Of a stretch of 37,246 bases of DNA, positions 1,734 to 33,656 are shown in pieces (within the stretch, counting starts at the first letter, position 1; the number at the start of each line of letters is the position of its first letter). Both the position numbers and the translations under genes were made by a program. Source of the DNA: an uncultured Methylococcaceae bacterium (GTDB lineage Bacteria; Pseudomonadota; Gammaproteobacteria; Methylococcales; Methylomonadaceae); NCBI GenBank assembly GCA_903938485.1, contig CAJADF010000078.1:1-37246 (forward strand), read 5' to 3'. The notes beneath the pieces are model-generated. The model saw only the letters and a list, made by a program, of their open reading frames with translations. It was not told where the DNA came from and did no database searches.

Positions 1734-2496
1734 GGGAGACTAATTTGTCATATTGTAAGATTAACCACGATGTTAATGTTCTGATCTCTTTTGCTGCGGC
1801 TGAATTAGGTGCGTAATATTGAATTGTATTTTTTTGGGCTAAGCATTCTTTAGTGTTTTCATCGAAATGAAGTTTTACTGGTATTAACTTATTTGAAATA
1901 CAAGATTTTAGAACTAAGCTTAATTCACTATCTAGTTCACTAAGGGGCATTATTTTATTTATCAAATAAAAGCTTTTATTATTTAGTTCATCATGATCGT
2001 TAAAATAATTGGATTGTATAGATTCGTATAATTGCGCTAAACAGGTCGTGTTTGGTTCTAGTACACGAATGATTTTATCTGCATAACTCATTGCTTGAAT
2101 GTTAACATTACTTAAGCGACTTTCTACATTCAATAAAATCCATTTCTTATCGGAGGTGTTAAGCAGGTCTAATTTAGATGATAACCAGCCTTTATGTATT
2201 AATGTGCGCTCGATAATCTGTTGTTCATCATAAGTTACACTGCCATAAGGAATAAAATTAACGCCTTTTTCACAGATATAGCCAGCCTCATGCCATATTT
2301 GTTTTTTGAGTTCGGCTCTAGCCCATCCTGAAGGATTACGCCATTCCATATTAAAATGTAACCTAAGTAAATTATTAGGGTTCAAATCAAAAATAACAAC
2401 ATCTTGATTTAAAATTTGTAAGTCACGAGCAACATTAGCAAGAATCGTTGATGTACCAACACCTGATTGAATTCCCTGAAAACATATAATCGGCAT
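1720..2496 (-). CDS. bcsQ: BcsQ, MinD/ParA-like cellulose regulator ATPase
   Basis: A 258-residue MinD/ParA-family protein. In enterobacteria BcsQ is needed for cellulose secretion and forms a cytoplasmic complex with BcsR and BcsE. The N-terminus reads GIQSGVGTST (residues 8-17), where classical deviant Walker A motifs carry two lysines. As I recall it, the E. coli protein is also lysine-poor here (GGVGTTT), so this is a family trait. Other family matches are DLNPNNLLRLHFN, close to E. coli DACPDNLLRLSFN, and GWARAEL. The gene starts 12 bases after bcsR, with AAAGG about 9 bases upstream of the ATG, and its end overlaps bcsA by 14 bases. The R-Q-A order is the same as in E. coli. Confidence 0.93.
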   Translation of the reverse strand: MPIICFQGIQSGVGTSTILANVARDLQILNQDVVIFDLNPNNLLRLHFNMEWRNPSGWARAELKKQIWHEAGYICEKGVNFIPYGSVTYDEQQIIERTLIHKGWLSSKLDLLNTSDKKWILLNVESRLSNVNIQAMSYADKIIRVLEPNTTCLAQLYESIQSNYFNDHDELNNKSFYLINKIMPLSELDSELSLVLKSCISNKLIPVKLHFDENTKECLAQKNTIQYYAPNSAAAKEIRTLTSWLILQYDKLVSHERV

Positions 2497-2508
2497 CTAA
2501 GTATACCT

Positions 2509-2673
2509 TTAAGTATTTGTTACATTGGTGTTGTTTGTAATTATTTCTTTAACCAACGGCCATTTATTTATTATCTCAAGAATCTCTTCATTTTCTTTAA
2601 CTTCAATATATTTAAATTCTTTTAAACCAATGCTTTTATATAGTTGTTCAATATCATTTTGGTCATAATCCAT
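2509..2673 (-). CDS. bcsR: BcsR small cellulose synthesis regulator (54 aa)
   Basis: A short gene in the gap between bcsG and bcsQ. It reads MDYDQNDIEQLYKSIG at the start and ends TNNTNVTNT. The diagnostic part is INKWPLVKEI near residues 34-43, which matches the KRWPLLAEF block of E. coli BcsR (YhjR, 62 aa). The position directly upstream of bcsQ is the same as in E. coli. BcsR forms a complex with BcsQ that supports c-di-GMP-dependent cellulose output; that role is known from the enterobacterial protein and only inferred here. It begins 6 bases after the bcsG stop codon, in a closely packed operon. The protein is mostly charged and has no membrane segment. Confidence 0.85.
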   Translation of the reverse strand: MDYDQNDIEQLYKSIGLKEFKYIEVKENEEILEIINKWPLVKEIITNNTNVTNT

Positions 2674-2679
2674 AATAAA

Positions 2680-4287
2680 CTACTCAATTTTATAGGACAT
2701 CCATTCTTTGTTATCGAATGAATAGTAATAGTTATTATGAAATTCCATAACAATAGAACCTTCATTCTCTGAAACAAATTGTGTAACGGGTATATCCTTA
2801 ATTAACTCATTAGGTGTAAAAGAATTTTCACTGAAAATATTTTTACGTAAAATTTGATTTACTAAATGACTAATTGCCGTATAACTTGTTTGTTGTTTAA
2901 TTACTTCTTGGTCTCCTAAACGTTTAATGTTATTACCGATAACTTTTAAACCTACGGGTACATTTGTAATTTTGGGACTAGGTAATTCACGCATCCCCGC
3001 AATTTGAATTTTGTCACCTTTTATGTTTGCACCATGCTCCGGCACAAAAAGAACGATTGTTGGTTTGTCAGATTTTTTTAAACCCTCTAAAACGTAGTAC
3101 ATATCATCTAATAAAGTGTTTAATCTTTTTTCGTAAGTTGCAGCAGCATTTAATTGTTTTTTATCATTAAAATGAACTCCATCGTGTAGACTAACAGTGT
3201 TGTAGAGAGTAAATGTTTTATTCGATTTATTATCATAATTATTTCTATTTTGTAACCAAACAGAAAACATATCAGCATCTCTATGAATGTGAGAATTATC
3301 GAAATTTAAAAGATAGGGATTAAAATTTATGTGATTGGGTGTAGCAGGAAGATGACCTTTATCAACAACTAGTGATGCAAAATTATCAAACTTACCATCA
3401 TGATTTAGTAAGAATTCGAAACTATAGCCAAGTTCTGCTAAATTGTCAGTTAAATAACAACGTTTATCTGATACCCCTCCCATGATTGCTTCATGTGTTT
3501 TTTGACCGCAATTTGCTTGAAGTAATCTTATGACTGCTGGGCCACTATATGAAGTAGCAGAATTGAAGTTTTCAAATAAAATATCAAATTCTTTAAATAA
3601 TTTATGGCTCTCTAGGTGAAAATATTTAATATCATCCCAGGATAATGAACAGACACTTAAAACTAAAATATCAAAGTTATTTTTATAAAAATTATTAGTT
3701 TCTAGGTTAATTTGTATATTGGTTTGTTTATCTAAAAATTCTTTTTTGTATTTATTCAATTCTGAATACAAAGCACTATTTGTTTTTATATCTTCTAATT
3801 TAACTGAGGGTAGGGGGGGGCTATTTGTATTATGAGGAGAAGAATAACTTATAAGATTTTGTGAACAATGAGATATACCCAAAATGACAATAATCGTTAT
3901 TACCCATGTCGATATTTTAAGAATATTATGGAAGGTAAAATATGCCATGGATGAAATAAAAACAATCAGCAGGATATCAATAGAAACAAATCTGCCCGAT
4001 AATTCCCATAAATAACTAGCATTAAATTGTGATATTTCTCTTAATTGAGAAATTAAATGATTTATTGGGGGTAAATATGATTCATCATACAAAATATAAC
4101 TAGATGAAAAAGTGGCTACAATTTGCTTAATTATATGTTTATAAGTGTTTTTTGTAGGAATTGATAAAAATAAAATAAGTGCAAAATTATATAGAAAGTT
4201 AATCTGAATATTTTGATTCAGAAATAATGCTAACGTAATGATGAAATAGATATTCCACAGACCTAAATTCAATTCAATAGATTTCAA
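2680..4287 (-). CDS. bcsG: BcsG cellulose phosphoethanolamine transferase
   Basis: An inner-membrane protein of 535 aa with several hydrophobic segments before residue 140 and a periplasmic alkaline-phosphatase-fold domain from about 205. In E. coli it transfers phosphoethanolamine from lipid to cellulose. The expected active-site residues are visible: Cys213 in SVCSLSW, the nucleophile Ser248 in SATSYSGPA, His368 in SLHDG, and Glu417-His418 in VPEHG. The Cys-to-Ser distance of 35 residues equals that of E. coli C243 to S278. The start is a TTG with GAGGAT upstream, 2 bases after bcsF. A run of eight Gs on the plus strand (3813-3820) encodes part of the proline-rich linker (SPPLPS, about 156-161) between the membrane and catalytic parts, a site where slippage could occur. 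Confidence 0.95.
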   Translation of the reverse strand: MKSIELNLGLWNIYFIITLALFLNQNIQINFLYNFALILFLSIPTKNTYKHIIKQIVATFSSSYILYDESYLPPINHLISQLREISQFNASYLWELSGRFVSIDILLIVFISSMAYFTFHNILKISTWVITIIVILGISHCSQNLISYSSPHNTNSPPLPSVKLEDIKTNSALYSELNKYKKEFLDKQTNIQINLETNNFYKNNFDILVLSVCSLSWDDIKYFHLESHKLFKEFDILFENFNSATSYSGPAVIRLLQANCGQKTHEAIMGGVSDKRCYLTDNLAELGYSFEFLLNHDGKFDNFASLVVDKGHLPATPNHINFNPYLLNFDNSHIHRDADMFSVWLQNRNNYDNKSNKTFTLYNTVSLHDGVHFNDKKQLNAAATYEKRLNTLLDDMYYVLEGLKKSDKPTIVLFVPEHGANIKGDKIQIAGMRELPSPKITNVPVGLKVIGNNIKRLGDQEVIKQQTSYTAISHLVNQILRKNIFSENSFTPNELIKDIPVTQFVSENEGSIVMEFHNNYYYSFDNKEWMSYKIE

Positions 4288-4289
4288 TA

Positions 4290-4469
4290 TTAATCCTCAT
4301 AAGTTTCAAAATATTTAGAAAACTTAACAGATTTAATCATTTTTGAATTACCCGTGTCTACATTTATGTGCCTAGTTAAAAAAGCCCATAAATCTTTAAT
4401 AACTAGACCTAGACCAATTCCAGCAATAAACGATGCACTAGCTGTAATGATAAAATAGTGATAATTCAT
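4290..4469 (-). CDS. bcsF: BcsF small membrane protein (59 aa)
   Basis: A 59-codon gene lying between bcsE and bcsG, as in E. coli bcsEFG. It starts MNYHYFIITASASFIAGIG, has one hydrophobic segment at about residues 5-25, then a basic and polar cytoplasmic tail ending KYFETYED. E. coli BcsF is a 63-aa single-span protein that helps BcsE and BcsG work with the synthase. Sequence identity outside the membrane segment is weak, so the name rests mainly on size, topology and position. The ATG lies 10 bases after the bcsE stop with CCTCCT nearby rather than a normal ribosome site; translation may be coupled to bcsE. It ends 2 bases before the bcsG start. Confidence 0.75.
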   Translation of the reverse strand: MNYHYFIITASASFIAGIGLGLVIKDLWAFLTRHINVDTGNSKMIKSVKFSKYFETYED

Positions 4470-4479
4470 TAATAGGAGG

Positions 4480-6105
4480 CTATAAAATAATACTAGGTTT
4501 AGCTACAGTTCTTATTGAATTATCAACCTCATCAATAATTTTTTTTGTATTAAGATGCTCATTATTTTTATCTTCAGATTGAGAGAGTAATTCAGCTTCT
4601 AATAGTTTAAGTTCTTGTCTGATCTCATCACTGTATGTAAAGAATTCGTGCTCTAAAAATAGCTGTTCATAAGGAAGCACAATAAGGTGAGAAAGTGCAT
4701 TATTTATAGCGGTGTATTCACATTGATATAGAAATATATAGATATGGTGTCTGCTATGTGTGTACACATCGCCATTTCGTTTAATATTAATAAAATTAAA
4801 TATATCATCTAAAGGAATAGATTCATTAATTTGAAATTTTATTAATGAAGAGTTAATTTCCATTTTTTGAGCATAATCAATAAGCTCTTTAGTTTGACTA
4901 ATAAAATCAACTATAGGTAATGCACCTTTAGCGTAACTATTTAAATTTATCTGATCTATTTCATCAGGATTATTAGGTATGCCTCTAGTGTAATAACTAC
5001 CCTGTAATGCATATACCATTGATATAAATTTTAGAAAATCAACTGATCTAGGAATAACAATGTTAGCGCCTAAATTAACTAGAAATTTTTCATCACTATT
5101 TCTTAGGCATTGTTCCATTTCCCGTAAAATAATTTTTAATTGTCTACCACCTTTTTTTCTTAACTCTAATACCTTATGAGCTACATATGTAAATTGTGTT
5201 TGAGCATCAATGTAAATAATAATTGTGGCAATTGAATCGTGCTCAATTATTTGTTCTATCTCTTCAAAATCATTCACTAATTTCCATTTTCTAGGAAAGA
5301 TTTCATTAACAACATCTGGGGTTCTTAAAACTAATGTGGTTTCTTGGCCTGTTACGGGAGACATTAAAAATTCCTGAGAATAAAAAAAGTTGTACTTATC
5401 AACAGTTAATTGATCGTTTTCATCTAATAATAATTTCAATGCTATATTAGCTTGAACCGTGGTATTCAGGTGCCAAAACAAAATATCGTATCTTATACTT
5501 GCATTCTTATAATCAAGAATGCTTAAACCATTAAATAAATTATTGAATTTAGTGAATTTAGTAGTTAAAACTTCAGATGCATGATCACCGTATATCAACC
5601 ATAAGCAATTTTTTTTCTGGCTTAAGAACCAACTTTGCCAACTAGATAGAAGAAATGCCAACTCCATTTCCGGCATTGATAAAAATATATCTTGATAAAT
5701 ATCTATAATAATAAGGTCATAATCAGTAAATTTCTTACCGGCAACATCATGTTTAATTTTATTGAAAAACTCCTTATATTCTTCAACATAAATAAAATTT
5801 AATGACAAATTACCTTTTCGGTAAATTTTCATTAGATTTATAGTTTTTTCTGTAGAAATTTTGAAAACATTGCTACGGTCTTCAAAAGATAATAAGGCTG
5901 TTTTATTATTTGAATTATTTAAAATAGTTTCAACTATTAATGTTCTTGCCATCAAATGGGTAGGAGCAGAAACTACATACAATCCATTTTTCTCGAGAGA
6001 ACTATACTTGGATTCAAGATTTAAAATGCCAAGCGTAGATGTAGATGACTCTTTAATTATAGATTGATCTTGAGCATCATCTTTTTTGACTAAACGTAAC
6101 TTCAT
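4480..6105 (-). CDS. bcsE: BcsE c-di-GMP-binding cellulose regulator
   Basis: A 541-aa cytoplasmic protein of about the length of E. coli BcsE (523 aa). BcsE binds c-di-GMP through a GIL domain with an RxxD site and recruits BcsF/BcsG and the BcsRQ complex to the synthase. Here RNGD at residues 443-446, followed by VYTHSRHHIYIF, fits that site. The N-terminal part holds a degenerate RecA/NTPase-like domain (YVVSAPTHLMARTLIVETIL, then LIIIDIY) without a full P-loop. The C-terminal tail after residue 490 is charged and acidic. It sits 43 bases after bcsC and 10 before bcsF. Identification comes from the RxxD block, length and neighbours; overall identity to E. coli looks low. Confidence 0.87.
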   Translation of the reverse strand: MKLRLVKKDDAQDQSIIKESSTSTLGILNLESKYSSLEKNGLYVVSAPTHLMARTLIVETILNNSNNKTALLSFEDRSNVFKISTEKTINLMKIYRKGNLSLNFIYVEEYKEFFNKIKHDVAGKKFTDYDLIIIDIYQDIFLSMPEMELAFLLSSWQSWFLSQKKNCLWLIYGDHASEVLTTKFTKFNNLFNGLSILDYKNASIRYDILFWHLNTTVQANIALKLLLDENDQLTVDKYNFFYSQEFLMSPVTGQETTLVLRTPDVVNEIFPRKWKLVNDFEEIEQIIEHDSIATIIIYIDAQTQFTYVAHKVLELRKKGGRQLKIILREMEQCLRNSDEKFLVNLGANIVIPRSVDFLKFISMVYALQGSYYTRGIPNNPDEIDQINLNSYAKGALPIVDFISQTKELIDYAQKMEINSSLIKFQINESIPLDDIFNFINIKRNGDVYTHSRHHIYIFLYQCEYTAINNALSHLIVLPYEQLFLEHEFFTYSDEIRQELKLLEAELLSQSEDKNNEHLNTKKIIDEVDNSIRTVAKPSIIL

Positions 6106-6148
6106 TCTTTAGAGTCTCAAATGCTGTAGTTTAAATTGTGATATTAAC

Positions 6149-9100
6149 TTAGTATTCTGCATAATCCACGATCGTGTTAGGTACTTTGGGTAGTAAATTA
6201 ACGGCATCCCAATGATCGTTAAAATCATATTTTAAATATAATCCGACATTACTTGGGTTGTAAAAAAGTGCTCGTTGTATTTGAGCGCGCCCACCAATTG
6301 ACCAATGATCAGTTATTCTCTTTTCAACGATTGCTGTTATACCATAGGTAAAGGCATTTGTTGTACTACCGGAAAAAATTGTTGATTCGCCGGACATAAA
6401 TGCTTGCTGTTGTAGTTGAGCATCACTAGGATAGTAGTTTGAATCGTTAACTTTTGAATAAGAATATGCACCAAAAACCCTAAAAGAATATGACCAATTA
6501 TCAAATTTACCGTAGGTTGTGATGGGTAAACTAATTGACGCATATGCTTGGGGACTGAAATAACCTCCATTTCCATAACTAAACTCATTCTGATTATTGT
6601 CATAATGCATGAAAATGGTATTTAAGCCCCAGTCTAAATTGGTTAAATTGCTAGGATCTTTCCATATCTCTCCATATAATCCAACTTGTCCTTGAAGTTT
6701 TTCGTTATCTTTTAGGTTTTGTCCATTGATGTATTGGTATTGCCAATTCGACCAGATACCGACAGGACTTCCGTTGTCATATCCTAAACTTAAACCTACA
6801 CCGTTTTGTCTTGCACCTCCCCAAACTTGTTTTGTATATGGGTCAGATAACCCGGCATAAGATAAAACTGTGTTTTTTACAGGACGACGTGATGCATTAA
6901 TTGCCCATGAAAATGAGTTAATATCGCCATCTAGACGAAGTCCACCTATAACATCTGAAACTAAGAAATTTTCTGGTGTCCTGCCTATGTCTGCAACCCA
7001 GTTTTTACCCATCCAACCTAAGTTATACCCAACACCTGTTGTTTGTAAGTTTGAATTATCATGGCCTCTTAAGTGCAGTTGTGAGGTACCGAAATCTGCT
7101 GCATTTAAATTTTGTGAAGTGGTATCCAAACTTAATGGATTGATTCTGAATATAGCATAGCCTATTTTATTGACAGGAATTTTTGCTTCTATACTGGAAC
7201 CAATTGAATTTGTATTTGTGCCGAAACGATATTCAGGGAAAAACGTAATATAACCATCAGATTTATCACGTAAATCTTGAATATTAGCTTTTATATTATT
7301 TGCTAGCCAATCATTATTACTATTTTGATACAGCCATTTTTTATCAACATCAGTTAAGTTTATTAGATTATTTGATATGGCGGGAGAAGTTTCAATAGGT
7401 TTTTTTTCGGATTGAGCTAATAGAGCCGCATAACTTAATTTTTCTGCTAAATCCCATTTTTTTAAAGAAAGTGCCGATTGTGAAGCTGAATATAACTCCC
7501 TTTCTGCGGCTTTAGTATCTTCTAAAAGAACAAGCAAAGCATTTTCAGCTTGTTTATTTTGTTCTAAATCAACAAGTATCTGTATACGTTTGACTCTAGG
7601 ATAATCAGAATATTTTTGAATATTAACTAATTGATCAAAGTGTTGATCTATCCATTTGATCATTAATTTTTCTATTTGATTTTTATCATTCGTTTTATTC
7701 ACTTCGAAAAAATTTGATTCAATGAAAACAGATGAAAATAATGCATCATTTTGTAAAATATTTAGATATAAGTTCTTAGCTTGAGAAAATTTACCTTGTG
7801 CTACTAGTTCATTTGCTTTAAGACATTTGTATTCAAATATTAGTTGATTGTACTTTTCAATTTCTTCAAGAGATGCATGTTTTAAATCTATTGTTTTATC
7901 GACTTTTTCTAATTTATTAAAATCCACTAATTTTATGAGTAGGCGTATATATTCAAGTTGAGAATAAAAAGGCCATTTATTACTATATTTAATTTTATTG
8001 ATAATTTTTCTAGCATGATCTTGAACGTCTAAATCATAAAGAGTACTTGCAATCTTAATTAACAATCCAGATTCGTTATTCGCATTATCTTCAATTATGC
8101 TTAAATAATTAATTGCTTTGACTCTATCTTGTTTTAATAAACTTTCAAAATGATCAAATTGATAATTGATTGATAATCTTTGTTGAGTTTCTATCATATT
8201 GATAGTTCTTGATTCAGGCTTTATTTTATTAATTTCTTCAAGCGCAGCAATTAAACGTCCATTCTTAGAAAGATAGATCGCATAAGCATAATTTATTTCA
8301 TCTGTATTTTGATTTTTAATGAGATATTCAGAGATGTATTTATCGGCCTCAGTATTTTTGTTAATTTGATTTAATAGATTCGCAACATTAAATGTTAGCC
8401 ATGGATCTTGAGATTTAATATTGACAGCAATATTAATTAATTCTGACCCTTTATTAAGGTTATGTTGAGTTATCAATGTTTGAGCATCTGCAATTAGGAA
8501 TTCTAACCTCTTATCCGAAATATAATTAGCGATGATATCTTTTTGGGTTTGTGTTAGTTTGTCAGACAAAAGAAATGCTTCAGCAGGTTTATTATCTTCA
8601 AATAATAACTTTAATTTACCAACCAGTGCCTCATAACTATTTGGGTTTAAGTCTAGTGCTTTGTTATAAAACTCATCGGCTAATATAAAATTCTTAGATT
8701 TAAAGTGAATTTTTGCAATTGCTAAGTAACAATAAATTTCACTTGGGTTTTGACTTAATAATTTATTAAATAACTCAATAGAAAGACTCTGATTACTCTC
8801 ACTTAATTTTTCAATACGCCCAATTTCTATCCAGAAATTAGCTTTATCAATTAGTATATTCCAATCGATTTTATTGTCATTAGATTGGAGTTTTTTACCA
8901 TCAATGAAATAATTTAAAGCCTCTGTATACTTAGCCTGATTAAATTTAATATTTCCTAAGCCTAAATAGACTTTAGGATTTTTGGGATGATAGCGTTTTG
9001 CGATTAGGTATTTATCTTCAGCGGCAGAGTAATCAGACTTATCTATAAGAGCAATTGCTTCCAATAAAGCTTTGTATCCTGGTTCATTTATTTTTTTGTT

Positions 9101-9910
9101 ATAAGAATTGAGATTTTTTCTTAATTCTTTAACTTTATCTTTAATCTTTATTTCAAAAGGATATGCAGATTCAATTTTATAGATTTCGTCTTTTGTTAGA
9201 TATTCAATTGGGGTTTTTGTAATTGCAGTTTCCCAGCTGTTAAGAATTGTAAGTGAATACGGTTCACTTTTAGATAAAATATCAAATTGAACTAGAGACT
9301 CTTTAATCTCTTTTGCATCTCCGTCTGCAAGCAAGTTTGCTAATGCTAATCGATACTCTTTAATAAAAGGATAATCTTTTATCCTATCGTTTAGAATTTG
9401 TTTTGTTTTTGCATAATTAACTGAACTTGAATAACTTAATACGGTTAAATATTCAATATCAATTGCGATTGTTGGCATACCATAAGGAAATAATTCTTGA
9501 TAAAGCTTAATAGCTTCATCCCCTCGTTTATTTCCTGCTAAAAATCTAGCTTGTTGTAGTTTTAATTTCTCGTGTCCAAAAGCTTCATATAAACTCTTGA
9601 GAAGATTTAATTTTGTATAAGTAGAGGCTTTTGATTCAATAAGTTCAATATTTTTTTTGGCATTTTCATTATCGCCCTTTAAAATTAATATCTCTGCTCG
9701 TAAATATAAGACTTCCATATTATTAGCATCGATAGACAACCAATGTTCTATTGCAGATTCAGCGATATCGTATCTATTGTTACTTTCTGCAAATAAAACT
9801 TGTTGTTTAAGATATTCAATTTGTTTTGCTGGATCTGCTTTAGCAGAATGCGGCATATTTGCAAGCAAAATGCTGAAGGTTAAGAGCTTTAATTTTTTTT
9901 TGTAGGCCAT
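6149..9910 (-). CDS. bcsC: BcsC cellulose export protein, TPR plus beta-barrel
   Basis: A 1253-aa periplasmic and outer-membrane protein, slightly longer than E. coli BcsC (about 1157). A signal peptide ends near AKA-D (residues 23-26). From about residue 30 to 890 there are many TPR helices, for example the block NPKVYLGLGNIKFNQAKYTE and ALDLNPNSYEALVGKLKLL. The C-terminal 360 residues, from about YITFFPEYRFG, alternate short polar and aromatic strands and form the outer-membrane barrel that carries cellulose out. AAAGG lies about 9 bases upstream of the ATG. It is the first gene of the visible operon, unlike E. coli, where bcsC comes last in bcsRQABZC. The coding sequence is very AT-rich. 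Confidence 0.95.
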   Translation of the reverse strand: MAYKKKLKLLTFSILLANMPHSAKADPAKQIEYLKQQVLFAESNNRYDIAESAIEHWLSIDANNMEVLYLRAEILILKGDNENAKKNIELIESKASTYTKLNLLKSLYEAFGHEKLKLQQARFLAGNKRGDEAIKLYQELFPYGMPTIAIDIEYLTVLSYSSSVNYAKTKQILNDRIKDYPFIKEYRLALANLLADGDAKEIKESLVQFDILSKSEPYSLTILNSWETAITKTPIEYLTKDEIYKIESAYPFEIKIKDKVKELRKNLNSYNKKINEPGYKALLEAIALIDKSDYSAAEDKYLIAKRYHPKNPKVYLGLGNIKFNQAKYTEALNYFIDGKKLQSNDNKIDWNILIDKANFWIEIGRIEKLSESNQSLSIELFNKLLSQNPSEIYCYLAIAKIHFKSKNFILADEFYNKALDLNPNSYEALVGKLKLLFEDNKPAEAFLLSDKLTQTQKDIIANYISDKRLEFLIADAQTLITQHNLNKGSELINIAVNIKSQDPWLTFNVANLLNQINKNTEADKYISEYLIKNQNTDEINYAYAIYLSKNGRLIAALEEINKIKPESRTINMIETQQRLSINYQFDHFESLLKQDRVKAINYLSIIEDNANNESGLLIKIASTLYDLDVQDHARKIINKIKYSNKWPFYSQLEYIRLLIKLVDFNKLEKVDKTIDLKHASLEEIEKYNQLIFEYKCLKANELVAQGKFSQAKNLYLNILQNDALFSSVFIESNFFEVNKTNDKNQIEKLMIKWIDQHFDQLVNIQKYSDYPRVKRIQILVDLEQNKQAENALLVLLEDTKAAERELYSASQSALSLKKWDLAEKLSYAALLAQSEKKPIETSPAISNNLINLTDVDKKWLYQNSNNDWLANNIKANIQDLRDKSDGYITFFPEYRFGTNTNSIGSSIEAKIPVNKIGYAIFRINPLSLDTTSQNLNAADFGTSQLHLRGHDNSNLQTTGVGYNLGWMGKNWVADIGRTPENFLVSDVIGGLRLDGDINSFSWAINASRRPVKNTVLSYAGLSDPYTKQVWGGARQNGVGLSLGYDNGSPVGIWSNWQYQYINGQNLKDNEKLQGQVGLYGEIWKDPSNLTNLDWGLNTIFMHYDNNQNEFSYGNGGYFSPQAYASISLPITTYGKFDNWSYSFRVFGAYSYSKVNDSNYYPSDAQLQQQAFMSGESTIFSGSTTNAFTYGITAIVEKRITDHWSIGGRAQIQRALFYNPSNVGLYLKYDFNDHWDAVNLLPKVPNTIVDYAEY

Positions 9911-12135: not shown

Positions 12136-14964
12136 ATGAGTAACCTGATAAAACTTTTTCAAGAATCATCATCATTGCAAGGTAGTAATGCGGTCTATAT
12201 AGAAAGTCTTTATGAACGCTATCTTGACGATCCTGAATCTGTTGAAATCAGTTGGCAGAAATATTTTAAAGAAATACAGAAAGGTATAGGCTATGAGACC
12301 CCCCATAGTCCGGTGGTTGAAAGGTTTGCAGAGTTAGCAACACAATCGCATCGCCGTTTAGCTCAATTACAGGGTTTTACTGAAGAAAGCGTAAAAAAAC
12401 AAGCCGCGGTTTCAAGACTTATCAATCACTATCGTGTTCGTGGCCATCAAATTGCTAACAGTAATCCATTAGGTAATAGTGCTCAATCCGCCGCAGATAT
12501 GGATCCATCTTATTACGGTTTAACCGAATTAGATATGGATACATTGTTCGATACAGGTGCCATTCAAGGTGGTGTTGATAGATTGCCTTTAAGAGATATT
12601 ATCGAAAAATTAAGAGTTGTTTACTGCTCTAGTATCGGCTCTGAATTTATGCATATTGTTGATACCCAAATACGACGTTGGTTAATAAACCGCCTAGAAA
12701 CATCCAAAGCAACTGTATCCTTAAATCCTTCTGAAAAACTTGAAGTCTTAAAATTATTAACAGCTGCCGAGGGTATTGAAAGTCATTTACATCATCGTTT
12801 TGTAGGACAAAAACGTTTTTCGCTTGAAGGAGGTGAATCATTAATACCCATTTTAGATGAACTTATCCAAAACTCTGGCCAAAAAGGAGTTAAAGAAATA
12901 GTGATTGGCATGGCTCATCGTGGTCGCTTAAATGTTTTAGTAAATATTTTGGGTAAAAGTCCAGCAAGTTTGTTTGACGAATTCGAAGGCACTTCATCGT
13001 TATTACCCGGTGCAAAATCAGGTGATGTTAAATATCACATGGGTTTTTCATCCAATTTACAGACATCAAGTGGCCCAGTCCATGTAACACTCGCTTTTAA
13101 CCCATCACATTTAGAAATAATAAACCCTGTCGTTGAAGGATCAGTAAGAGCCCGACAAGACAGGGCTGGAGAAGAGGGGGTTAGTTCGGTTATTCCGATT
13201 TTAATTCATGGCGATGCAGCATTTTCTGGTCAAGGTATAGTTATGGAGACACTCAATATGTCTCAAACGCGAGCATTTTATACCGGAGGCACCGTTCATA
13301 TTGTTATCAATAATCAAATTGGATTTACTACCAGCAATCCTCTTGATGCGAGATCGACTTTATACTGCACTGATGTCGCTAGTATGATTCAAGCCCCCGT
13401 ATTTCATGTCAATGGGGACGATCCTGAAGCAGTTATTTTTGTGACTAAGTTAGCATTAGATTATAGAATGACCTTCAATAAAGATGTGGTTATTGATCTT
13501 ATCTGCTATAGACGTTTGGGTCATAACGAGGCTGATGAACCAGCTGCAACTCAGCCTTTAATGTATAAAAAAATTCGTAAGCATAAAACCACACGAAAAA
13601 TATATGCTGAAAAATTAATCCATGAAAAATTATTAACTGCAGATGAAGCTCTAACTATGGAGCGAGATTATCAAATGCTTTTAGAAGCAGGTGAAGTTGT
13701 CTCTAGACCTATTTCCAAAAACCCCGAGTACTCTTATACAAACCAATGGTATAAATTCTTAAATACCAATTGGGATACGCCTACTAATACCGCAATATCA
13801 CTGGATTATTTGCGTTATTGTAATGATAGAATGCAAAGATTACCTATCGGCTTTGAATTGCATCCTAGAGTTGCTAAAGTCATGGAAAATCGACGTAAAA
13901 TGGCGGCGGGGGCCTTGCCATTAGATTGGGGTTTTGCAGAAAATTTAGCTTATGCCAGTTTACTTTTAGAAAAGCACCCTATTAGAATTACTGGTCAAGA
14001 TGTAGGTAGAGGCACCTTCGTACATCGTCACGCTGTCTTACATAATCAACTTAATAACAAGACCTATACACCTTTAAAACATTTAGATAAAGATCAAGGC
14101 AGTGCTTTGATTTTTGACTCTTTATTGTCAGAAGCGGGTGTGTTAGGTTTTGAATATGGTTATAGCACAACAACACCTAATTCTCTAGTTATCTGGGAAG
14201 CTCAATTTGGTGATTTTGCTAATGGAGCACAGGTGGTTATCGATCAATTTATCAGTTCAGGTGAAACTAAATGGGGAAGACTTTGTGGCTTAGTTATGTT
14301 GTTACCTCATGGTTACGAAGGGCAGGGGCCAGAACATTCTTCAGCACGATTGGAGCGATATTTGCAACTATGTGCAGATAATAATATTCAGGTTTGTAAT
14401 CCAAGCACACCGGCTCAAATATTCCATTTACTACGAAGACAAATTATACGACCATTTCGTAAACCACTTGTAATAATGAGTCCTAAGAGTTTGTTAAGAC
14501 ATAAATTAGCAGTATCTTCTTTAGAAGATATAACATCAGGTCATTTCCAAACCATAATTGGTGAGCAATCTAAACATAATCCAAAAAAAGTAACTCGATT
14601 TATCTTATGTGCAGGAAAAGTTTACTATGACTTGTTGGAAGCGCGTGACCAAGATAAGTTGGAGCATGTAGTTATAGCTAGGTTAGAGCAACTTTATCCA
14701 TTTCCAGAAAATTTACTGAAAATAGAATTAGCGAAATATCCCAAACTTGAAGAGTTTATTTGGTGCCAAGAAGAACCCAAAAACCAAGGTGCTTGGTATC
14801 AATCCAAACATCACTTTACTGATCATGTACCCGCACATATTTCCGTATCTTATGCGGGTCGTGATGCCTCTGCAGCCCCAGCAGTTGGTAAATTTCACGT
14901 CCATATAGAACAACAAAAAGCTGTCATTCATTCGGCCTTATACGGCAATACCTTAGGAAATTAA
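12136..14964 (+). CDS. sucA: 2-oxoglutarate dehydrogenase E1 component
   Basis: The thiamine-diphosphate subunit of the 2-oxoglutarate dehydrogenase complex; it decarboxylates 2-oxoglutarate and passes the succinyl group to SucB. Its 942-aa length is normal. The N-terminal SucB-binding segment ([19 protein letters not shown]) is present. The ThDP/Mg block begins at GDAAFSGQG near residue 359 and continues to [10 protein letters not shown]. The E1 hallmarks [33 protein letters not shown] and [19 protein letters not shown] are all intact. It is the first gene of a tight operon: sucB starts 1 base after its stop. Nothing suggests loss of activity, which makes the degenerate E3-like third gene more notable. 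Confidence 0.98.
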
Positions 14965-14965
14965 T

Positions 14966-16204
14966 ATGAGCATCGAAGTCGTAGTACCCCATTTACCAGA
15001 ATCTGTCTCTGATGCGACCTTAATCAACTGGCAAAAAAAACCAGGCGATTTTGTTAATAAAAATGAAAATTTAGTGGACTTAGAAACAGACAAAGTTGTT
15101 TTGGAAGTAACTGCACTAGAATCAGGTATTTTGAGCCAAATCCTTAGAGAAAATGGCGCTATTGTTACAGCAGGAGAAGTGTTAGCTATCATACAAATTA
15201 CTTCTGCTGAAGAATCAACGCCTGTGGAACCCGTAGCAAAATCTACTCAAACACCCATTAATAATGAAGATGACATGCCATTAAGTCCTTCAGTGCGACG
15301 CTTAATTCATGAAAATGGCTTAAACCCAAATCAAATTAGGGGCACTGGTAAAAGTGGGCGATTAACTAAATCTGATGTATTAGAGCATATTAATAATACA
15401 AGCTTTGTAACTGTAAAAGTTACTCCAGTAACTTCAGAAACAGTGCAAACTTCAGAGCCTGTCATCATTACACCAATAGAATCTTTAAACCCTTCGTCAA
15501 GTATACGTCCAGAGCAGCGTGTTGCAATGACACGTTTAAGAGCTAAGGTTGCAGAAAGACTACTGCAAGCCCAACAAAATGCCGCCATGTTGACTACATT
15601 TAATGAAGTTAACATGCAAAGTGTAATCGATTTACGAAATCAATATAAAGATCGATTTGAGAAAAAACATGCAGTCAAATTAGGCTTTATGTCTTTCTTT
15701 GTAAAAGCATCTATTGAAGCGTTAAAACATTTCCCAGCGATAAATGCCTCTATTGATGGTAGTGATATTATTTATCACGGCTATTATGATTTAGGAATTG
15801 CAGTTAGTACTCCTCGTGGATTAATAGTTCCTGTTTTACAGGATGCTGATCAATTAGATTTTGCTGGTATAGAAAAAACTATTGCATCTTTTGGTGAAAA
15901 GGCGAGGGCAGGAACTTTAAGTTATGATGATTTGAAAGGCGGCACATTCACAATTACTAATGGTGGGGTATTTGGTTCAATGTTATCAACACCCATTTTG
16001 AATCCACCACAATGTGCAATTTTGGGTATGCACGCTATCAAAGAACGTCCCGTTGTTGAAAACGGTCAAATTGTTATTAGACCCATCATGTATCTTGCTC
16101 TTTCTTATGATCATCGCTTAGTTGATGGTCGTGAAGCTGTACAGTTTTTAGTCACCATTAAAGAATGTTTAGAATCTCCGGCTCATTTATTATTAAATAT
16201 TTAA
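14966..16204 (+). CDS. sucB: Dihydrolipoyl succinyltransferase E2 component
   Basis: The core of the 2-oxoglutarate dehydrogenase complex; its swinging lipoyl arm receives succinyl from SucA and passes it to CoA. The 412-aa protein has one lipoyl domain with the modified lysine at Lys43 (ETDKVVLEV), a linker, a peripheral subunit-binding domain at about residues 108-140 ([19 protein letters not shown]), and the catalytic domain ending [13 protein letters not shown], with the active-site His near 383 and Asp near 387. All parts are intact. AGGAAA precedes the ATG, which lies 1 base after the sucA stop. Its dihydrolipoyl arm must be reoxidised by an E3 enzyme; the neighbouring E3-like gene lacks the residues to do this. 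Confidence 0.98.
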
Positions 16205-16208
16205 TTTT

Positions 16209-17627
16209 ATGCCAACTATAAGCAAAGTTCATTATGATGTTATTGTTGTTGGGACAGGTCCCGCTGGTTTTGCATGCGCTGTTCGTTGTGCAGAGTTAGG
16301 TTTAAATACGGCTTGTATTAACAATCGACAAGATGCAAATAACAAAGACACCCATCTTAATACAGGAAGTATTGGGACGATGGCATTATTAGATTCCGCT
16401 AAAAAATATCATAGCTTAATTCATGAATATGCCCAACACGGCATATTGGCAAATGAAATAATTTTAGACGTATCTGCAATGCAGCAAAGAAAAGACAATA
16501 TTCTTGCTGAAATTGGCAACAAGATGATTGATTTATTTAATAAAAATGATATTGATCATATACATGCAAAAGCAAAACTATTAAATCCTCAGCAAGTAGA
16601 ACTGATTGATGATAATACATCCTTAAAATCAATTATTAATGCTAAATATATTATTTTAGCATCTGGGTCAGAGTCTATTACTCTGCCTAATATTAAAATT
16701 GATAATGAGTATATATTTGACGCTAAAATGGCTTTAAATCTTGATCAAGTCCCTAAAAAATTGGCGATTATTGGTGCAGGGGTAATGGGTTTAGAGCTGG
16801 CTAATATTTGGGGTCGCTTAGGATCAGATATATTAATATTGGAAGCTCAAGAGAATTTCCTATCTTTACTTGATCAAGAGTTATCGTGTGCAGCATTCGG
16901 TATATTTCAAAAACAAGGTCTTGATTTGCGATTAGGTGCCAGAGTTATCTCTGCTAAAAAGGGCAATAAACACATTACTATCCAATATCAAGACCAAGAA
17001 GGTACTCATACAGTAAAAGTTGATAAAGTAATCGTTGCTTGCGGTAGCAGGCCTAACACGGCTAATTTAGCAGCACCTGAAGCTAATTTATTATTAGATC
17101 AAGATGGCTACGTATATGTTGATGATAATTGTCGAACTAATTTACCAGGCGTTTATGCCATTGGGGATTTAACATTACTAGGTCCAATGTTGGCACATAA
17201 AGGTATTGAAGAAGGTATTTTTGTTGCTGATTTTATTGCCGGTATAAATAATCCGATTAATTATGAAGTTGTACCCAGTGTTATTTATACTGAACCAGAG
17301 ATCGCTTGGGTAGGACAGACCGAACAGTCTTTACGCGCCACGGGTGAACCCATTACTATTGGTATTTACCCAATTCATGAAAATATACGAGCCTTAGCTA
17401 TAAGTAAACCTGATGGGTTTGTGAAAATTATTGCGCATTCTTATACAGATAAAATTTTGGGAATTCATATTATTGGTTCAAATGCATCTGAGCTAATTGC
17501 CGAAGCAGTTCTCGCACTTGAGTTTTCTGCTAGCAATGAAGATTTAGCTCGTACGATTCATGCGCGTCCAACCTTATCAGAAGCTGTTCACGACGCATCC
17601 TTAGTATTAAGATCTAAAGCAGTATGA
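16209..17627 (+). CDS. Dihydrolipoamide dehydrogenase-like flavoprotein lacking the redox disulfide
   Basis: This has the fold and length (472 aa) of Lpd, the E3 that reoxidises dihydrolipoamide, and lies 4 bases after sucB. The first FAD motif (VVGTGPAG, residues 13-20), the NAD motif (GAGVMGLE, 189-196), GVYAIGD and the C-terminal dimer domain are recognisable. The catalytic residues are not. Where Lpd has TCLNVGCIPSKALL, this protein reads THLNTGSIGTMALL: His49 and Ser54 replace both disulfide cysteines and Met58 replaces the lysine. The HxHPT base is also gone: HARPTLSE puts Arg453 where the catalytic His belongs, while Glu458 stays. The usual FAD-ribose Glu also appears replaced (ACINN). 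The frame is open throughout, so it is not an obvious pseudogene. It cannot be a standard E3; a structural, regulatory or other redox role is possible. Confidence 0.9.
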   Translation: MPTISKVHYDVIVVGTGPAGFACAVRCAELGLNTACINNRQDANNKDTHLNTGSIGTMALLDSAKKYHSLIHEYAQHGILANEIILDVSAMQQRKDNILAEIGNKMIDLFNKNDIDHIHAKAKLLNPQQVELIDDNTSLKSIINAKYIILASGSESITLPNIKIDNEYIFDAKMALNLDQVPKKLAIIGAGVMGLELANIWGRLGSDILILEAQENFLSLLDQELSCAAFGIFQKQGLDLRLGARVISAKKGNKHITIQYQDQEGTHTVKVDKVIVACGSRPNTANLAAPEANLLLDQDGYVYVDDNCRTNLPGVYAIGDLTLLGPMLAHKGIEEGIFVADFIAGINNPINYEVVPSVIYTEPEIAWVGQTEQSLRATGEPITIGIYPIHENIRALAISKPDGFVKIIAHSYTDKILGIHIIGSNASELIAEAVLALEFSASNEDLARTIHARPTLSEAVHDASLVLRSKAV

Positions 17628-25765: not shown

Positions 25766-26218
25766 TTAAATTATTGAAGACTGATACTTAACCGTAAAGT
25801 CATTTAAGTTGTTTAATACCGCGTCTAAATCAGTCGTTTTTTCACTCGCATAGGCATTCACACCAACGCGTGATAGATAAAATACTTGCTCTGGAAGGTA
25901 ACGACCGATGGCTCTAATTTCATCTTTATAATCAAAACGACCGCGTAATAACCAAGCTTGTGAGAAAGATCGACCATCTGAAAAATCTGCAAAGTCTAAC
26001 TCCACTAATTTTATGTTTGTTAGATCCTCAGCAAAATCTTCAACACTATCACTGGCTTTTAAACGTAAACCCACTTTTCCATTATGAGCTACTAAATCTG
26101 CACGGTTTTGCTGCCATCTAGCCAAAGAAACGGTGATATCTCCTGCAATCAACGCCGCGTCATCAGCAATAAATTGCCACGTGTTGTCTACACGCTGTTT
26201 GTCTTTAATTATTTGCAT
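25766..26218 (-). CDS. DUF934 protein, partner of sulfite reductase
   Basis: A 150-aa protein of the DUF934 family, which regularly follows siroheme sulfite reductase genes in Pseudomonas-like and related bacteria. Visible family blocks are VELDFADFSDGRSFSQA and RFDYKDEIRAIGRYLPEQ at about residues 72-110, and VGVNAYA. Its exact function is not established; it may support electron delivery or assembly for the reductase. It overlaps the end of the reductase gene by 14 bases, which implies translational coupling. No flavoprotein subunit (CysJ) is present next to it. Confidence 0.88.
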   Translation of the reverse strand: MQIIKDKQRVDNTWQFIADDAALIAGDITVSLARWQQNRADLVAHNGKVGLRLKASDSVEDFAEDLTNIKLVELDFADFSDGRSFSQAWLLRGRFDYKDEIRAIGRYLPEQVFYLSRVGVNAYASEKTTDLDAVLNNLNDFTVKYQSSII

Positions 26219-27857
26219 AAACTTGCTCTTTAAAAGGATTGATACCTAAACGATTAACTGCTTCTAAGAAAGTTTCTTCTTCTAAACGATTTTTAACGTA
26301 CACGTCTAAGATAGTGGTAATAGCTTTAGTAATTTCATCTTTAGCAACGGCAGGTCCTAAACGCTCACCAATGGCCGCATTATTTTCTGAAGATCCACCC
26401 AACGTTATTTGATACCACTCTGCACCTTTTTTATCGACCCCTAGAATTCCGATATGTCCCACACTCTGATGGGCACATCCGTTCATACAACCCGACATAT
26501 TGATTTTTAACTCACCAATGTCATGAATGTAATCTAAATCATCTAAGGCTTCGTTAATTTCTTTCGCAACACCAATAGATCCAGCATTTGCTAAAGAGCA
26601 AAAATCCAAACCTGGGCAACAAATCATATCGGTTGCTTTACCAATATTAGGTGTGGCTAGTTCTAAAGCGGCTAGTTTTTGCCAAACAGTATATAAATCT
26701 GCTTGTTTAACATCCGCTAATATTAAATTTTGTCTATGGGTCGCTCTAATTTCACCAAAGCTATATGCATCTGCAATATCTGCAACCGCATCTAATTGCA
26801 CATCAGTAATATCACCAGGAGGCATATCAGGGGCTTTTAAGGAAATAAATACAGCCGTATAACCTGACACTTTATGTGCTGCAGTGTTATGCGCCAACCA
26901 AGTAGCAAAAGCTTTATTATTTACTTTATGTTCTGCAAAACTAGTATCAGTATCTGCAGTCACATCATAAGCAGGAGAAGCAAAATGAGCTTTTAGCTCA
27001 TCAACACGCTCTGCACTAAGTTCGTTAGCGTCACGCAGATGCGCCCATTCTGCATCAACTAATTTAGTAAACTCTTCTAAACCCGTTTCTTTAACAAGAA
27101 TTTTAATACGCGCTTTGTATTTATTATCCCGACGCCCAAATAGGTTATAAATTCGTAGGATAGCTTCTAGATAAGACAATAAATGTTTTTGCTCTAAGTA
27201 AGGCTTAATCACTTGGCCAATGATGGGGGTACGACCTAATCCACCGCCTACAAAGACTTTAAAACCTACCTCACCCGCATCATTTTTAACCAAATGCAAA
27301 CCAATATCATGAAATTGAGTTGCCGCTCTGTCGTTAAGCGCACCACTCACCGCAATTTTAAATTTACGCGGTAAATAATCAAATTCAGGATGCAATGTTG
27401 TCCACTGTCTAATAATTTCACAATAAGGCCGTGGATCAGCAATTTCATCAACGGCAACACCGGCTAAATGATCAGACGTAGTATTACGCATACAGTTACC
27501 ACTGGTTTGAATGGCATGCATTTGCACAGTGGCCAACTCAGCTAATATCTCGGGTACTAACTCTAATTTGGGCCAGTTAAACTGAATATTTTGACGGGTG
27601 GTAAAGTGACAATAATTTTTGTCATACGTCCGTGCGATATGCGCTAATTTACGCACTTGCTTTGAACTAATTAATCCATAAGGCCCTGCAACGCGTAATA
27701 ACGGTGCATGGGTTTGAATATAAACCCCGTTTCTTAAGCGTAAAGCACGATATTCATCTTCTGACAACTCGCCTTTAAAGTAATTTTCGGTCTGACGTTT
27801 AAATTGAGCGACACGCTCATCAATGAGGATTTGATCGTTTTCGGTATACTGATACAT
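26205..27857 (-). CDS. Siroheme nitrite/sulfite reductase hemoprotein (CysI-like)
   Basis: A 550-aa cytoplasmic siroheme enzyme that reduces sulfite (or nitrite) with six electrons. The coupled Fe-S/siroheme cysteines are present: CPGLDFC around residues 411-418 (C-x5-C) and SGCMNGC around 455-460 (C-x3-C). The two ferredoxin-like half-domains appear as YIQTHAPLLRVAGPYGLIS with TRQNIQFNW, and IRATHRQNLILADV. The pairing with DUF934 and the lack of cysJ fit the assimilatory, ferredoxin-using or otherwise cysJ-independent sulfite reductases of many proteobacteria. Sulfite is the likelier substrate from context, but sequence alone does not exclude nitrite. It has its own strong promoter just upstream. 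Confidence 0.92.
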   Translation of the reverse strand: MYQYTENDQILIDERVAQFKRQTENYFKGELSEDEYRALRLRNGVYIQTHAPLLRVAGPYGLISSKQVRKLAHIARTYDKNYCHFTTRQNIQFNWPKLELVPEILAELATVQMHAIQTSGNCMRNTTSDHLAGVAVDEIADPRPYCEIIRQWTTLHPEFDYLPRKFKIAVSGALNDRAATQFHDIGLHLVKNDAGEVGFKVFVGGGLGRTPIIGQVIKPYLEQKHLLSYLEAILRIYNLFGRRDNKYKARIKILVKETGLEEFTKLVDAEWAHLRDANELSAERVDELKAHFASPAYDVTADTDTSFAEHKVNNKAFATWLAHNTAAHKVSGYTAVFISLKAPDMPPGDITDVQLDAVADIADAYSFGEIRATHRQNLILADVKQADLYTVWQKLAALELATPNIGKATDMICCPGLDFCSLANAGSIGVAKEINEALDDLDYIHDIGELKINMSGCMNGCAHQSVGHIGILGVDKKGAEWYQITLGGSSENNAAIGERLGPAVAKDEITKAITTILDVYVKNRLEEETFLEAVNRLGINPFKEQVYANN

Positions 27858-31951: not shown

Positions 31952-31995
31952 ACTAATGCACTAATCAAGTTCTACATATTAGGTTCATTTTGTTG

Positions 31996-33081
31996 ATGCC
32001 CATTTTAAATACAATTAAACAATGGTTTTACAATACTAATCAATCAGTGTTATGTATTTATATTGGTGAAATTGCAGTGAAAGCAATACAAATAAGTAAG
32101 ATTAAGACTAAATATCAAGTCGATGGATTTGCAGTAGTTGCTTTTAATAGTGACTCAAATATTGATAGACCCATAACTCTAAATCGAGAAACTATTATAA
32201 CTGCAATAAAACTTGCTATAAAACAGGTAAATACAAATCTAAAAGTAGTAACAACTTGCCTAAATGGTGCAAGTGTAATTTCTAAAAATATTTCAATTAA
32301 AACAGATGTAATCAATGAAAACATAGAAGAAACCGTGCTAATAAATGTACATCAATTTGTACCTTATTTACTTGATGAAATTAATTACGATTATGTGTTA
32401 GGTGATATTAAGAGTAGTGACTCTAATTATAGAGATGTTTTATTTATCGCTTCAAGAAAAGAAGATGTTGTATCAATAATCGAGTTATTTAAAATTGCTG
32501 GCCTTATTACAGAGCGTATTGATGTTGAAACTTATGCAATTAAAAATGCCTGTGCGTTAATACCAGAATACATCAAACGATCATTATTAGACGAAATTAT
32601 TGCAGTAGTTGATTTAGGTTTTAAACAATCTATATTTACAGTTATTTATCAAAATAAAATTATATATTCGCACGAACTTAATATTGGTGGGATTCAGTTG
32701 CTTTTTGCTATAGAACAAGAGTATCAATGTACTTATAAAGAAGCCGATCAGAAACTATTTAATATCTTATTACTTGATACTGTTTCCGATCTACTTTTAG
32801 AAAACTTTTATACAGAATTATATAATCGAATTTTAAGGGCAATAGAATTATTTAAGAGCCATACTGACAATCCCTCTGTTTCATCACTTTTTTTAATGGG
32901 TGATTATGCTTTCTTACCAAATATTAACTCTGTATTAGAATCCTCACTAAATATACCCGTGTATATTACAAATCCTCTATTAAATATGGGGATAGCTTCT
33001 CACCTAAATACTATTGAGCTAAATAAAATCGCCCCTGCATTTATGGTGTTATGCGGTTTAGCATTAGGAAGTATTACATGA
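31996..33081 (+). CDS. pilM: Type IV pilus assembly ATPase-fold protein PilM
   Basis: A 361-aa cytoplasmic actin-like protein that binds the N-terminus of PilN and links the inner-membrane PilNO platform to the pilus motor. The actin-fold phosphate loops are visible as SVLCIYIGEIAVKAIQIS at the N-terminus and EIIAVVDLGFKQSIFTVIY around residue 200, then LFLMGDYAFLPNINSVLE. The identification agrees with the following pilN, pilO-P and pilQ genes. The ATG at 31996 is preferred over TTG codons just before it; the ribosome site is weak. The divergence from well-known PilM sequences appears high, and the gene is strongly AT-rich. Its stop overlaps the pilN start (ATGA). Confidence 0.9.
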   Translation: MPILNTIKQWFYNTNQSVLCIYIGEIAVKAIQISKIKTKYQVDGFAVVAFNSDSNIDRPITLNRETIITAIKLAIKQVNTNLKVVTTCLNGASVISKNISIKTDVINENIEETVLINVHQFVPYLLDEINYDYVLGDIKSSDSNYRDVLFIASRKEDVVSIIELFKIAGLITERIDVETYAIKNACALIPEYIKRSLLDEIIAVVDLGFKQSIFTVIYQNKIIYSHELNIGGIQLLFAIEQEYQCTYKEADQKLFNILLLDTVSDLLLENFYTELYNRILRAIELFKSHTDNPSVSSLFLMGDYAFLPNINSVLESSLNIPVYITNPLLNMGIASHLNTIELNKIAPAFMVLCGLALGSIT

Positions 33082-33656
33082 TAACAAGGATCAATTTATT
33101 GCCTTGGAGGTCCGAGAAACTTAAGGTCCAAAAATCTTTATTTAGAAATCAGTTAATCGTATCGAGTTTATCGGGAGTAATTATCTGTTTGCTAGTTCAT
33201 AGTATCCTACAGACAATGCAAGATGATGAAATAAAAACTAATAAAATACTCGTACAAAAATCAAATGTAATTGATCTTAAAATCAAAGAAATTAATCAAA
33301 TCAAATTAAATCAGCAACAATTAAAAACTAATATTGAATTGATTCGGCAAACTTTAAATAGACGTATTGAATTAATACAATTGCTTAATGAAATACCAAC
33401 TTTAATACCTGCCGGAATTTATTTAACTGAATTTGTTGAAAAGGATAGTGAAGTAACTTTCATAGGTAAAGCTCAATCTAACAAAGCAGTATCTTTATTC
33501 ATGAAAAATATTGAGGAGTCATTAAGTTTTACAACACCTCACCTAAGAGAAATTAAAAGCTCTGATAAAACCGATACACCTATATTTCCAAATGATTTCA
33601 CGGTAAGTACATCTCATATCATAGATTATAATGAGCAATTAAATGCACACAAGTAA
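33078..33656 (+). CDS. pilN: Type IV pilus assembly protein PilN
   Basis: A 192-aa bitopic inner-membrane protein. The first residues MITRINLLPWR are the conserved PilM-binding tail; one membrane helix follows (LIVSSLSGVIICLLVHSIL, about 25-43), then a periplasmic coiled coil and a ferredoxin-like domain (IPAGIYLTEFVEKDSEVTFI). It pairs with PilO to form the inner-membrane platform. The start is set at ATG 33078, which overlaps the pilM stop, because the INLLPWR tail must be near the N-terminus. Its end overlaps the next gene by 14 bases. Confidence 0.92.
   Translation: MITRINLLPWRSEKLKVQKSLFRNQLIVSSLSGVIICLLVHSILQTMQDDEIKTNKILVQKSNVIDLKIKEINQIKLNQQQLKTNIELIRQTLNRRIELIQLLNEIPTLIPAGIYLTEFVEKDSEVTFIGKAQSNKAVSLFMKNIEESLSFTTPHLREIKSSDKTDTPIFPNDFTVSTSHIIDYNEQLNAHK

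Follow-up and report, generated by a model that had tools for sequence, protein, structure and literature searches.

Does the third gene of a sucA-sucB-lpd operon encode an E3 simply because it scores as one? The question is raised by the window analysed here, the whole of a 37,246-nucleotide stretch of DNA (contig CAJADF010000078.1) from an uncultured Methylococcaceae bacterium. A methanotroph is the natural reading of this host, whose genome has a pMMO/AMO-type gene. An earlier note, made from the letters of the DNA alone, had held that the E3-like gene lacks the residues on which the chemistry of dihydrolipoyl dehydrogenase (Lpd, E3) depends, and had suggested that the true E3 comes from elsewhere, the protein itself perhaps serving as a structural E2-binding subunit, a regulator, or a flavoprotein with a different electron acceptor.

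The operon and the active site

The features on which the argument rests are these:

12136..14964, + strand: sucA, 2-oxoglutarate dehydrogenase E1 (NF006914, 1344.9 bits, cut-off 764)
14966..16204, + strand: sucB, dihydrolipoyllysine succinyltransferase E2 (NF004309, 582.8 bits, cut-off 449)
15281..15382, + strand: SucB residues 106-139, matching the E3-binding domain PF02817 and supposed to be where docking occurs (47.1 bits, cut-off 23.7)
16209..17627, + strand: pseudo-E3, 472 aa, a dihydrolipoyl dehydrogenase orthologue that lacks the catalytic His as well as the redox disulfide
16251..16268, + strand: FAD-binding GxGxxG, residues 15-20 (retained by 110/112 family orthologues)
16353..16355, + strand: His49 codon, at the place of the first (interchange) Cys (Tyr, His, Phe or Asn in 112/112)
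16368..16370, + strand: Ser54 codon, at the place of the second (flavin-side) Cys (Cys still in 71/112)
16380..16382, + strand: Met58 codon, at the place of the active-site Lys (Met, Ile, Leu or Val in 112/112)
16773..16790, + strand: NAD-binding GxGxxG, residues 189-194 (retained by 112/112)
17565..17567, + strand: Arg453 codon, at the place of the catalytic His (His still in 75/112)
17580..17582, + strand: Glu458 codon, the dyad Glu (retained by 99/112)

As the earlier note had remarked, the gene is kept beside intact partners: sucA and then sucB lie directly 5' of it, and both score at equivalog level. The frame of 472 codons at 16209-17627 (+) is uninterrupted, again as had been stated, and its stop-free translation rules out a pseudogene by broken frame. 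The active-site stretch, THLNTGSIGTMALL, contains His49, Ser54 and Met58, so that the CxxxxC redox disulfide of E3 is unmet (His49, Ser54). In the C-terminal HARPTLSE, Arg453 stands at the place of the catalytic His of the His-Glu dyad, and Glu458 is retained. The same five columns (49, 54, 58, 453 and 458) read Cys-Cys-Lys-His-Glu in 17/17 canonical Lpd loci, among which one gene (that of the window's own genome) was entered twice, and in 7/7 intact orthologues; the four substitutions first read from the letters stand up to the comparison with canonical Lpds. Both GxGxxG motifs and the dimerisation domain (PF02852, 113.5 bits) are as recognisable as had been claimed.

It is important to remember that E3 works by dithiol-disulfide exchange, and that this mechanism of the disulfide reductase family requires the cysteine pair. 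With both cysteines and the His gone, the window protein cannot follow the dithiol-disulfide route. It nevertheless passes the TIGR01350 dihydrolipoyl dehydrogenase equivalog (424.6 bits, cut-off 408.8), and automatic annotation would therefore label it “Lpd” or “E3.” It falls far short of the cut-offs for Si-specific NAD(P)+ transhydrogenase (NF003585; 274.1 bits, cut-off 465) and LpdA-like NAD(P)H-quinone dehydrogenase (NF005883; 219 bits, cut-off 479). Sequencing error, chance, or artefact is excluded in practice, since independent genomes carry the same lost states; every orthologue in the window's genus that covers these sites shows them.

The window holds several other gene groups. A cellulose synthesis cluster at 1720-9910 (BcsQ, BcsG, BcsE, and a BcsC-like protein at 445 of 858 bits) has a G+C mostly lower (26-36%) than that of the sucAB region, and type IV pilus genes (PilM, a 327-aa frame with PilO and PilP domains, and a secretin) occupy 31990-36260. 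A sulfite/nitrite reductase-like hemoprotein (26205-27857) reaches the cut-off of none of the NCBIfam models listed, and the product of the gene adjoining it (25766-26218), 150 aa long, matches nothing in NCBIfam at 1e-10.

Where is the working E3?

A search for a second lpd with CxxxxC, which the earlier note had offered as a check, finds one in the same genome. This Lpd (C89) reads Cys-Cys-Lys-His-Glu and lies behind aceE and an aceF-like gene (547.4 of 552.1 bits). Canonical-type Lpd occurs in 287/311 genomes of the order, Methylotuvimicrobium alcaliphilum 20Z (G228) included; please note that the active site was read in 17 loci only. In genus g27 the 1.5 kb fetched 3' of sucA and sucB contains no E3 gene in 8/8 genomes; that search also covered 12 further sucB loci, 11 without an E3 gene and one (G040) with a degenerate copy. 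As the window's genome has a canonical Lpd in its pyruvate dehydrogenase operon, and sucAB of relatives can stand without an adjoining E3 gene, E3 can probably be supplied in trans. Together with the losses common to relatives, the second Lpd supports the suggestion, where it could be tested, that standard E3 chemistry is absent here and the true E3 comes from elsewhere. G019, G031, and G034 each have two canonical-type Lpd matches besides the pseudo-E3, all of which were read as Cys-Cys-Lys-His-Glu; several g22 genomes likewise have two such matches.

Distribution of the losses

We searched 311 genomes of the order, taking as an orthologue any match at E up to 1e-95, and 190 had one. By hand count 166 of these belong to family f1, which we take to be GTDB Methylomonadaceae. 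The full-length set consists of 112 sequences from 111 of the 166 (one genome contributed two) in 25 genera. The mapped set began with 132 loci whose orthologue match was at least 40%; removing six duplicates and four short fragments left 122, namely the 112 of f1, seven intact copies of f7/f8, and one each of f2, f5, and f6. Duplicates L033-L035, L058, and L059 and fragments L054-L056 and L060 lie outside the mapped set and are uncounted; all eight fragments (the four short ones and these four) have lost states wherever the sites are covered.

The first Cys and the Lys are absent from 112/112 f1 orthologues, the second Cys is present in 71 and the His in 75, and both cysteines and the His are all gone in 32. 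Position 49 is Tyr in 50, His in 43, Phe in 18, and Asn in one; position 58 is Met in 60, Ile in 28, Leu in 14, and Val in 10. Asp320 is conserved in all 112, and a one-residue insertion at 322 (Thr in 101/112) is found in none of 34 intact orthologues. Outside f1, all seven f7/f8 orthologues fetched lie in the same operon and read Cys-Cys-Lys-His-Glu. When 369 genomes were drawn from across the class, 185 had a match, and of the best-scoring 30 loci fetched from these the 27 outside the order all read Cys-Cys-Lys-His-Glu (27/27), with a sucB match on the same strand at 26. The window's gene is orthologous to the E3 gene found at the end of sucA-sucB-lpd operons in relatives. Aligning orthologues at 49, 54, 58, and 453, another check named at the outset, finds the losses common to relatives; the loss is family-wide and, on the tree described below, stepwise, which is more than a single sequence could reveal.

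In f2, f5, and f6 one order genome each has a degenerate copy of different make-up. That of f6 (L052, in G052) is a Ser-Cys-Lys-Tyr-Asp orthologue, away from sucB and behind a cupredoxin-like gene; it may have degenerated independently. A second genome of that genus, G309, has an orthologue match as well.

The pseudo-E3 gene adjoins sucB in 108/112, and sucB is present in 165/166 f1 genomes with an orthologue. Order-wide the figure is 188/190, the exceptions (G001 and G070) both being incomplete. Of the four genes not beside sucB, one (L110) is at a contig end, and L085 (G106), L120 (G167), and L121 (G168) lie elsewhere, their frames still open. The last two, of one genus (g25), share an AIM24-family gene as divergent neighbour, with a transposase and EttA as other neighbours at the g25 loci, and L085 is accompanied by cytochrome c assembly, glycosyltransferase, and MltB genes. 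We draw no functional clue from these surroundings; a common AIM24 neighbour is to be expected of close kin. Three f1 genera (g27, g32, and g36) have sucB matches without an orthologue.

Two further oddities should be recorded. G132 (g22) has two differing pseudo-E3 copies (L109 and L110) on two contigs, by either duplication or contamination, and the G019 orthologue (L019) has a TAA inside the matched stretch close to its C-terminal end.

The pMMO/AMO family PF02461 was found in 29/36 genomes searched, including 5/7 of f7 and 2/2 of f8, and the E3s that were read, from five of those seven f7 genomes and from both f8 genomes, are all intact. With intact E3s in f7/f8 genomes searched for PF02461, there is no clean link that would tie the loss simply to methane oxidation.

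History and selection

A tree was computed without the active-site columns; many of its inner branches are weakly supported. The 112 f1 sequences form one group (support 0.83) that adjoins the f2 and f5 copies, all 114 together having support 1.0, and because of this grouping the first losses may predate the family. A Fitch down-pass over the five sites gives Y-C-I-H-E at the f1 ancestor, with nested later states of H-C-M-R-E (one g17 genome) and then H-(G/S/D)-M-R-E (most of the window's genus); in g1, position 453 is Arg in 26/28, Ser in one, and Asn in one. On this reconstruction the first Cys and the Lys were lost in or before the family ancestor, and the second Cys and the His were additionally lost in the window's genus. 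A special residue set at 49 and 58 might be offered as proof of a new function. This is unsupported: the tree has 13 changes at position 49 and 17 at 58, the median column having 14, and among columns with similar change numbers 55% (for site 49) and 39% (for site 58) also hold four residues or fewer.

Selection was estimated by the Nei-Gojobori method on 115 pairs, 104 of them in two reported groups and none among intact orthologues; pairs have branches in common and are hence non-independent. In g1/g17 the median dN/dS was 0.078 (44 pairs, range 0.038-0.121) and that of sucB 0.077 on 38 scorable pairs; in other genera it was 0.096 (60 within-genus pairs, range 0.027-0.137), with 0.080 for sucB on 50 scorable pairs. 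The window gene enters no pair within the dS limits, because its nearest relative is already at 84% identity. Where measurable, then, the pseudo-E3 is estimated to be under purifying selection close to that on sucB. The earlier note would have yielded to orthologues with stop codons and a dN/dS near 1, the marks of a decaying pseudogene, and the value of about 0.08 in relatives is nothing of the kind.

The E3-like protein can still diverge quickly. Between G000 and G035 its identity is 61% against 79% for sucB and 80% for canonical Lpd; between G035 and G036 the three values are 68, 70, and 71%, and the faster divergence appears to sit mostly in the window's lineage. By domain, mean identity among family pseudo-E3s is 52% (FAD), 64% (NAD), 68% (interface), and 79% (central), and canonical Lpds follow a similar, flatter order (68, 74, 79, and 81%). 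The weak FAD domain should not be read as the mark of a changed role, for canonical Lpds and intact orthologues are also least conserved there, if less markedly.

Predicted structure and docking

An AlphaFold2 model of the window protein, built with 51 orthologues, has a pLDDT of 87.6 and a pTM of 0.85, and among PDB structures it is most like the Lpds of Pseudomonas, with a TM of 0.95 (as for 6awa) and 41-43% identity. The E3 fold is thus predicted to be retained, and dimerisation, FAD carriage, and NAD(H) binding are inferred. Residues 43-45 and 51-53 have a pLDDT under 50, and the active-site-loop blocks have values of 51 and 73; in an intact orthologue, modelled from the same set of sequences, these blocks reach 83 and 85, and no stretch is under 50. 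This comparison rests on one model per protein, and the window protein is shorter right before the loop.

SucB of the window has its lipoyl, E3-binding (47.1 bits), and catalytic domains, and the consensus of the E3-binding domain is closely similar across the five groups compared. On the side of the pseudo-E3, Glu438 is retained in 110/112 family orthologues; we presume that it corresponds to the Bacillus E3 Glu that contacts the binding domain. Docking on SucB is an inference only: the intactness of the domain was checked, and there are no binding data.

Comparison with known systems

The closest likeness is to the Lpd of Pseudomonas and Azotobacter, with which the window protein shares the orthologous sucA-sucB-lpd place, 41-43% identity, a TM of 0.94-0.95, the FAD and NAD motifs, and the dimerisation domain; unlike them, it is without redox disulfide, active-site Lys, and catalytic His. 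Disulfide-poor relatives of Lpd are already known, and three are described in the accessible text of PMC6296175: Irc15p of Saccharomyces cerevisiae, which is without the Cys pair and exists alongside a canonical Lpd; the soluble transhydrogenase STH/SthA, without at least one redox cysteine and a histidine; and the quinone reductase LpdA (Rv3303c) of M. tuberculosis, without one Cys, the catalytic His, and the Glu. Irc15p is eukaryotic, microtubule-associated, and no OGDH-operon E3; in a PDB sequence search the window protein is much nearer to Lpd (E 3.1e-125) than to STH (2.6e-41); and its match to LpdA is remote (E 5e-33, residues 144-465 only), the window protein retaining the Glu. The M. 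tuberculosis LpdA gene is not known to lie in a sucAB operon.

Physiology in the literature

2-Oxoglutarate dehydrogenase (OGDH) activity was held to be absent in type I methanotrophs, according to the available portions of PMC517821, PMC6373157, and PMC10602362. For M. alcaliphilum 20Z(R), Table 3 of PMC5802761 gives pyruvate dehydrogenase (PDH) activities of 120 and 290 nmol/min/mg and marks OGDH as “N.D.”; its methods describe a single assay mix for both enzymes, and “N.D.” could stand for not determined. The orthologue of strain 20Z (L131, G228) reads Y-C-M-H-E. Other excerpts complicate matters: according to 13C work cited in PMC10602362 and PMC6373157, the cycle of M. buryatense is complete on methane but incomplete on methanol, and the second of these papers mentions a Methylomonas sp. 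DH-1 sdh mutant that built up succinate. Methylococcus capsulatus is also said to be without the activity, and its genome paper, in the text available, names only two OGDH genes, MCA1952/MCA1953 (PMC517821). This species likely belongs to family f4, an inference of ours, and no orthologue was found in f4 genomes in the 311-genome search. If so, a pseudo-E3 is unnecessary for missing activity.

We found no mention of a methanotroph operon E3 in the accessible parts of PMC6456754, PMC7154130, and PMC6860931, and no published report of E3 loss in methanotrophs among the matches listed, which were partial texts with thin coverage of subscription journals. As far as these searches show, an OGDH-operon E3 orthologue turned pseudoenzyme across 25 genera is unreported.

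What might the pseudo-E3 do?

Our preferred reading, put forward tentatively, is that the gene encodes a conserved pseudo-E3, possibly one that occupies SucB and thereby throttles OGDH; neither binding nor throttling has been shown. The protein would dimerise, hold FAD, bind NAD(H), and dock on the E3-binding domain of SucB. Unable to reoxidise the dihydrolipoyl groups there, it would compete with canonical Lpd, and the competition would keep OGDH low or conditional. PDH, with its own E2 and its own Lpd, would be unaffected. What favours such a throttle is the constancy of the operon, the tie to sucB, and the published contrast between PDH and OGDH. Several points tell against it. The NAD motif is kept as well as the FAD motif, which suits a redox enzyme at least equally; the estimated dN/dS outside g1/g17 is slightly above that of sucB, and the protein can outpace SucB and Lpd in divergence between genera; the gene is off sucB in three genomes, and g27, g32, and g36 do without it; and the 13C work on M. 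buryatense, as cited in the excerpts available, supports a complete cycle on methane. The main rival, which we find somewhat doubtful but must take seriously, is that the protein is an active flavoprotein which oxidises NADH, hands the electrons to another acceptor (quinone, NADP, or oxygen), and merely retains its operon place. The untouched NAD motif (112/112, with the FAD motif in 110/112) and what is known of Irc15p, STH, and LpdA, which pass NADH or NADPH electrons to non-disulfide acceptors as far as PMC6296175 is available, speak for it, as does persistence of the gene off sucB in three genomes, two of them (g25) with the AIM24-family neighbour. It sits less well with a gene found beside sucB in 108/112 and accompanied by sucB in 165/166 f1 genomes, or with scores so far below the transhydrogenase and NAD(P)H-quinone dehydrogenase cut-offs. 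A throttling dummy E3 and an NADH flavoprotein are not mutually exclusive.

Two other explanations carry little weight with us. Slow decay of a redundant gene, after E3 supply passed to the Lpd of aceEF, is highly unlikely: three f1 genera do keep sucB without the gene, the protein can outpace sucB and Lpd (61% vs 79% and 80%, above), and the G019 orthologue has a stop close to its end, but dN/dS values of 0.08-0.10, equal to or near those of sucB, long open frames across 25 genera, retained nucleotide-binding motifs, and a loss that must be older than those genera all tell against it. That the protein still works as an E3, relying on Cys54 alone together with the His-Glu dyad in a variant mechanism, is scarcely to be credited. 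Cys54 in 71/112 and His453 in 75/112 would allow it in part of the family, but the window protein has neither cysteine nor the His, all three are gone in 32/112, and the exchange needs a pair. Moreover, Irc15p, without the pair, is unreactive with lipoamide in the accessible account (PMC6296175).

Implications

Finding sucA, sucB, and an Lpd-scoring gene in a row invites the reading of a complete OGDH in methanotrophs. By its sequence, the third operon gene in f1 encodes no working E3, and we caution against metabolic models that count it as one. Its part in the puzzle of the missing activity can now be tested by a single knockout. The boldest form of the throttle, which we consider unlikely as yet, is a built-in, family-wide brake on OGDH in these type I methanotrophs that fills the E3 sites of SucB and reads NADH. 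If true, this brake would decide whether the citric acid cycle's oxidative branch is held open or shut, and would be a molecular cause of the missing activity in the family and a contributor to obligate methanotrophy.
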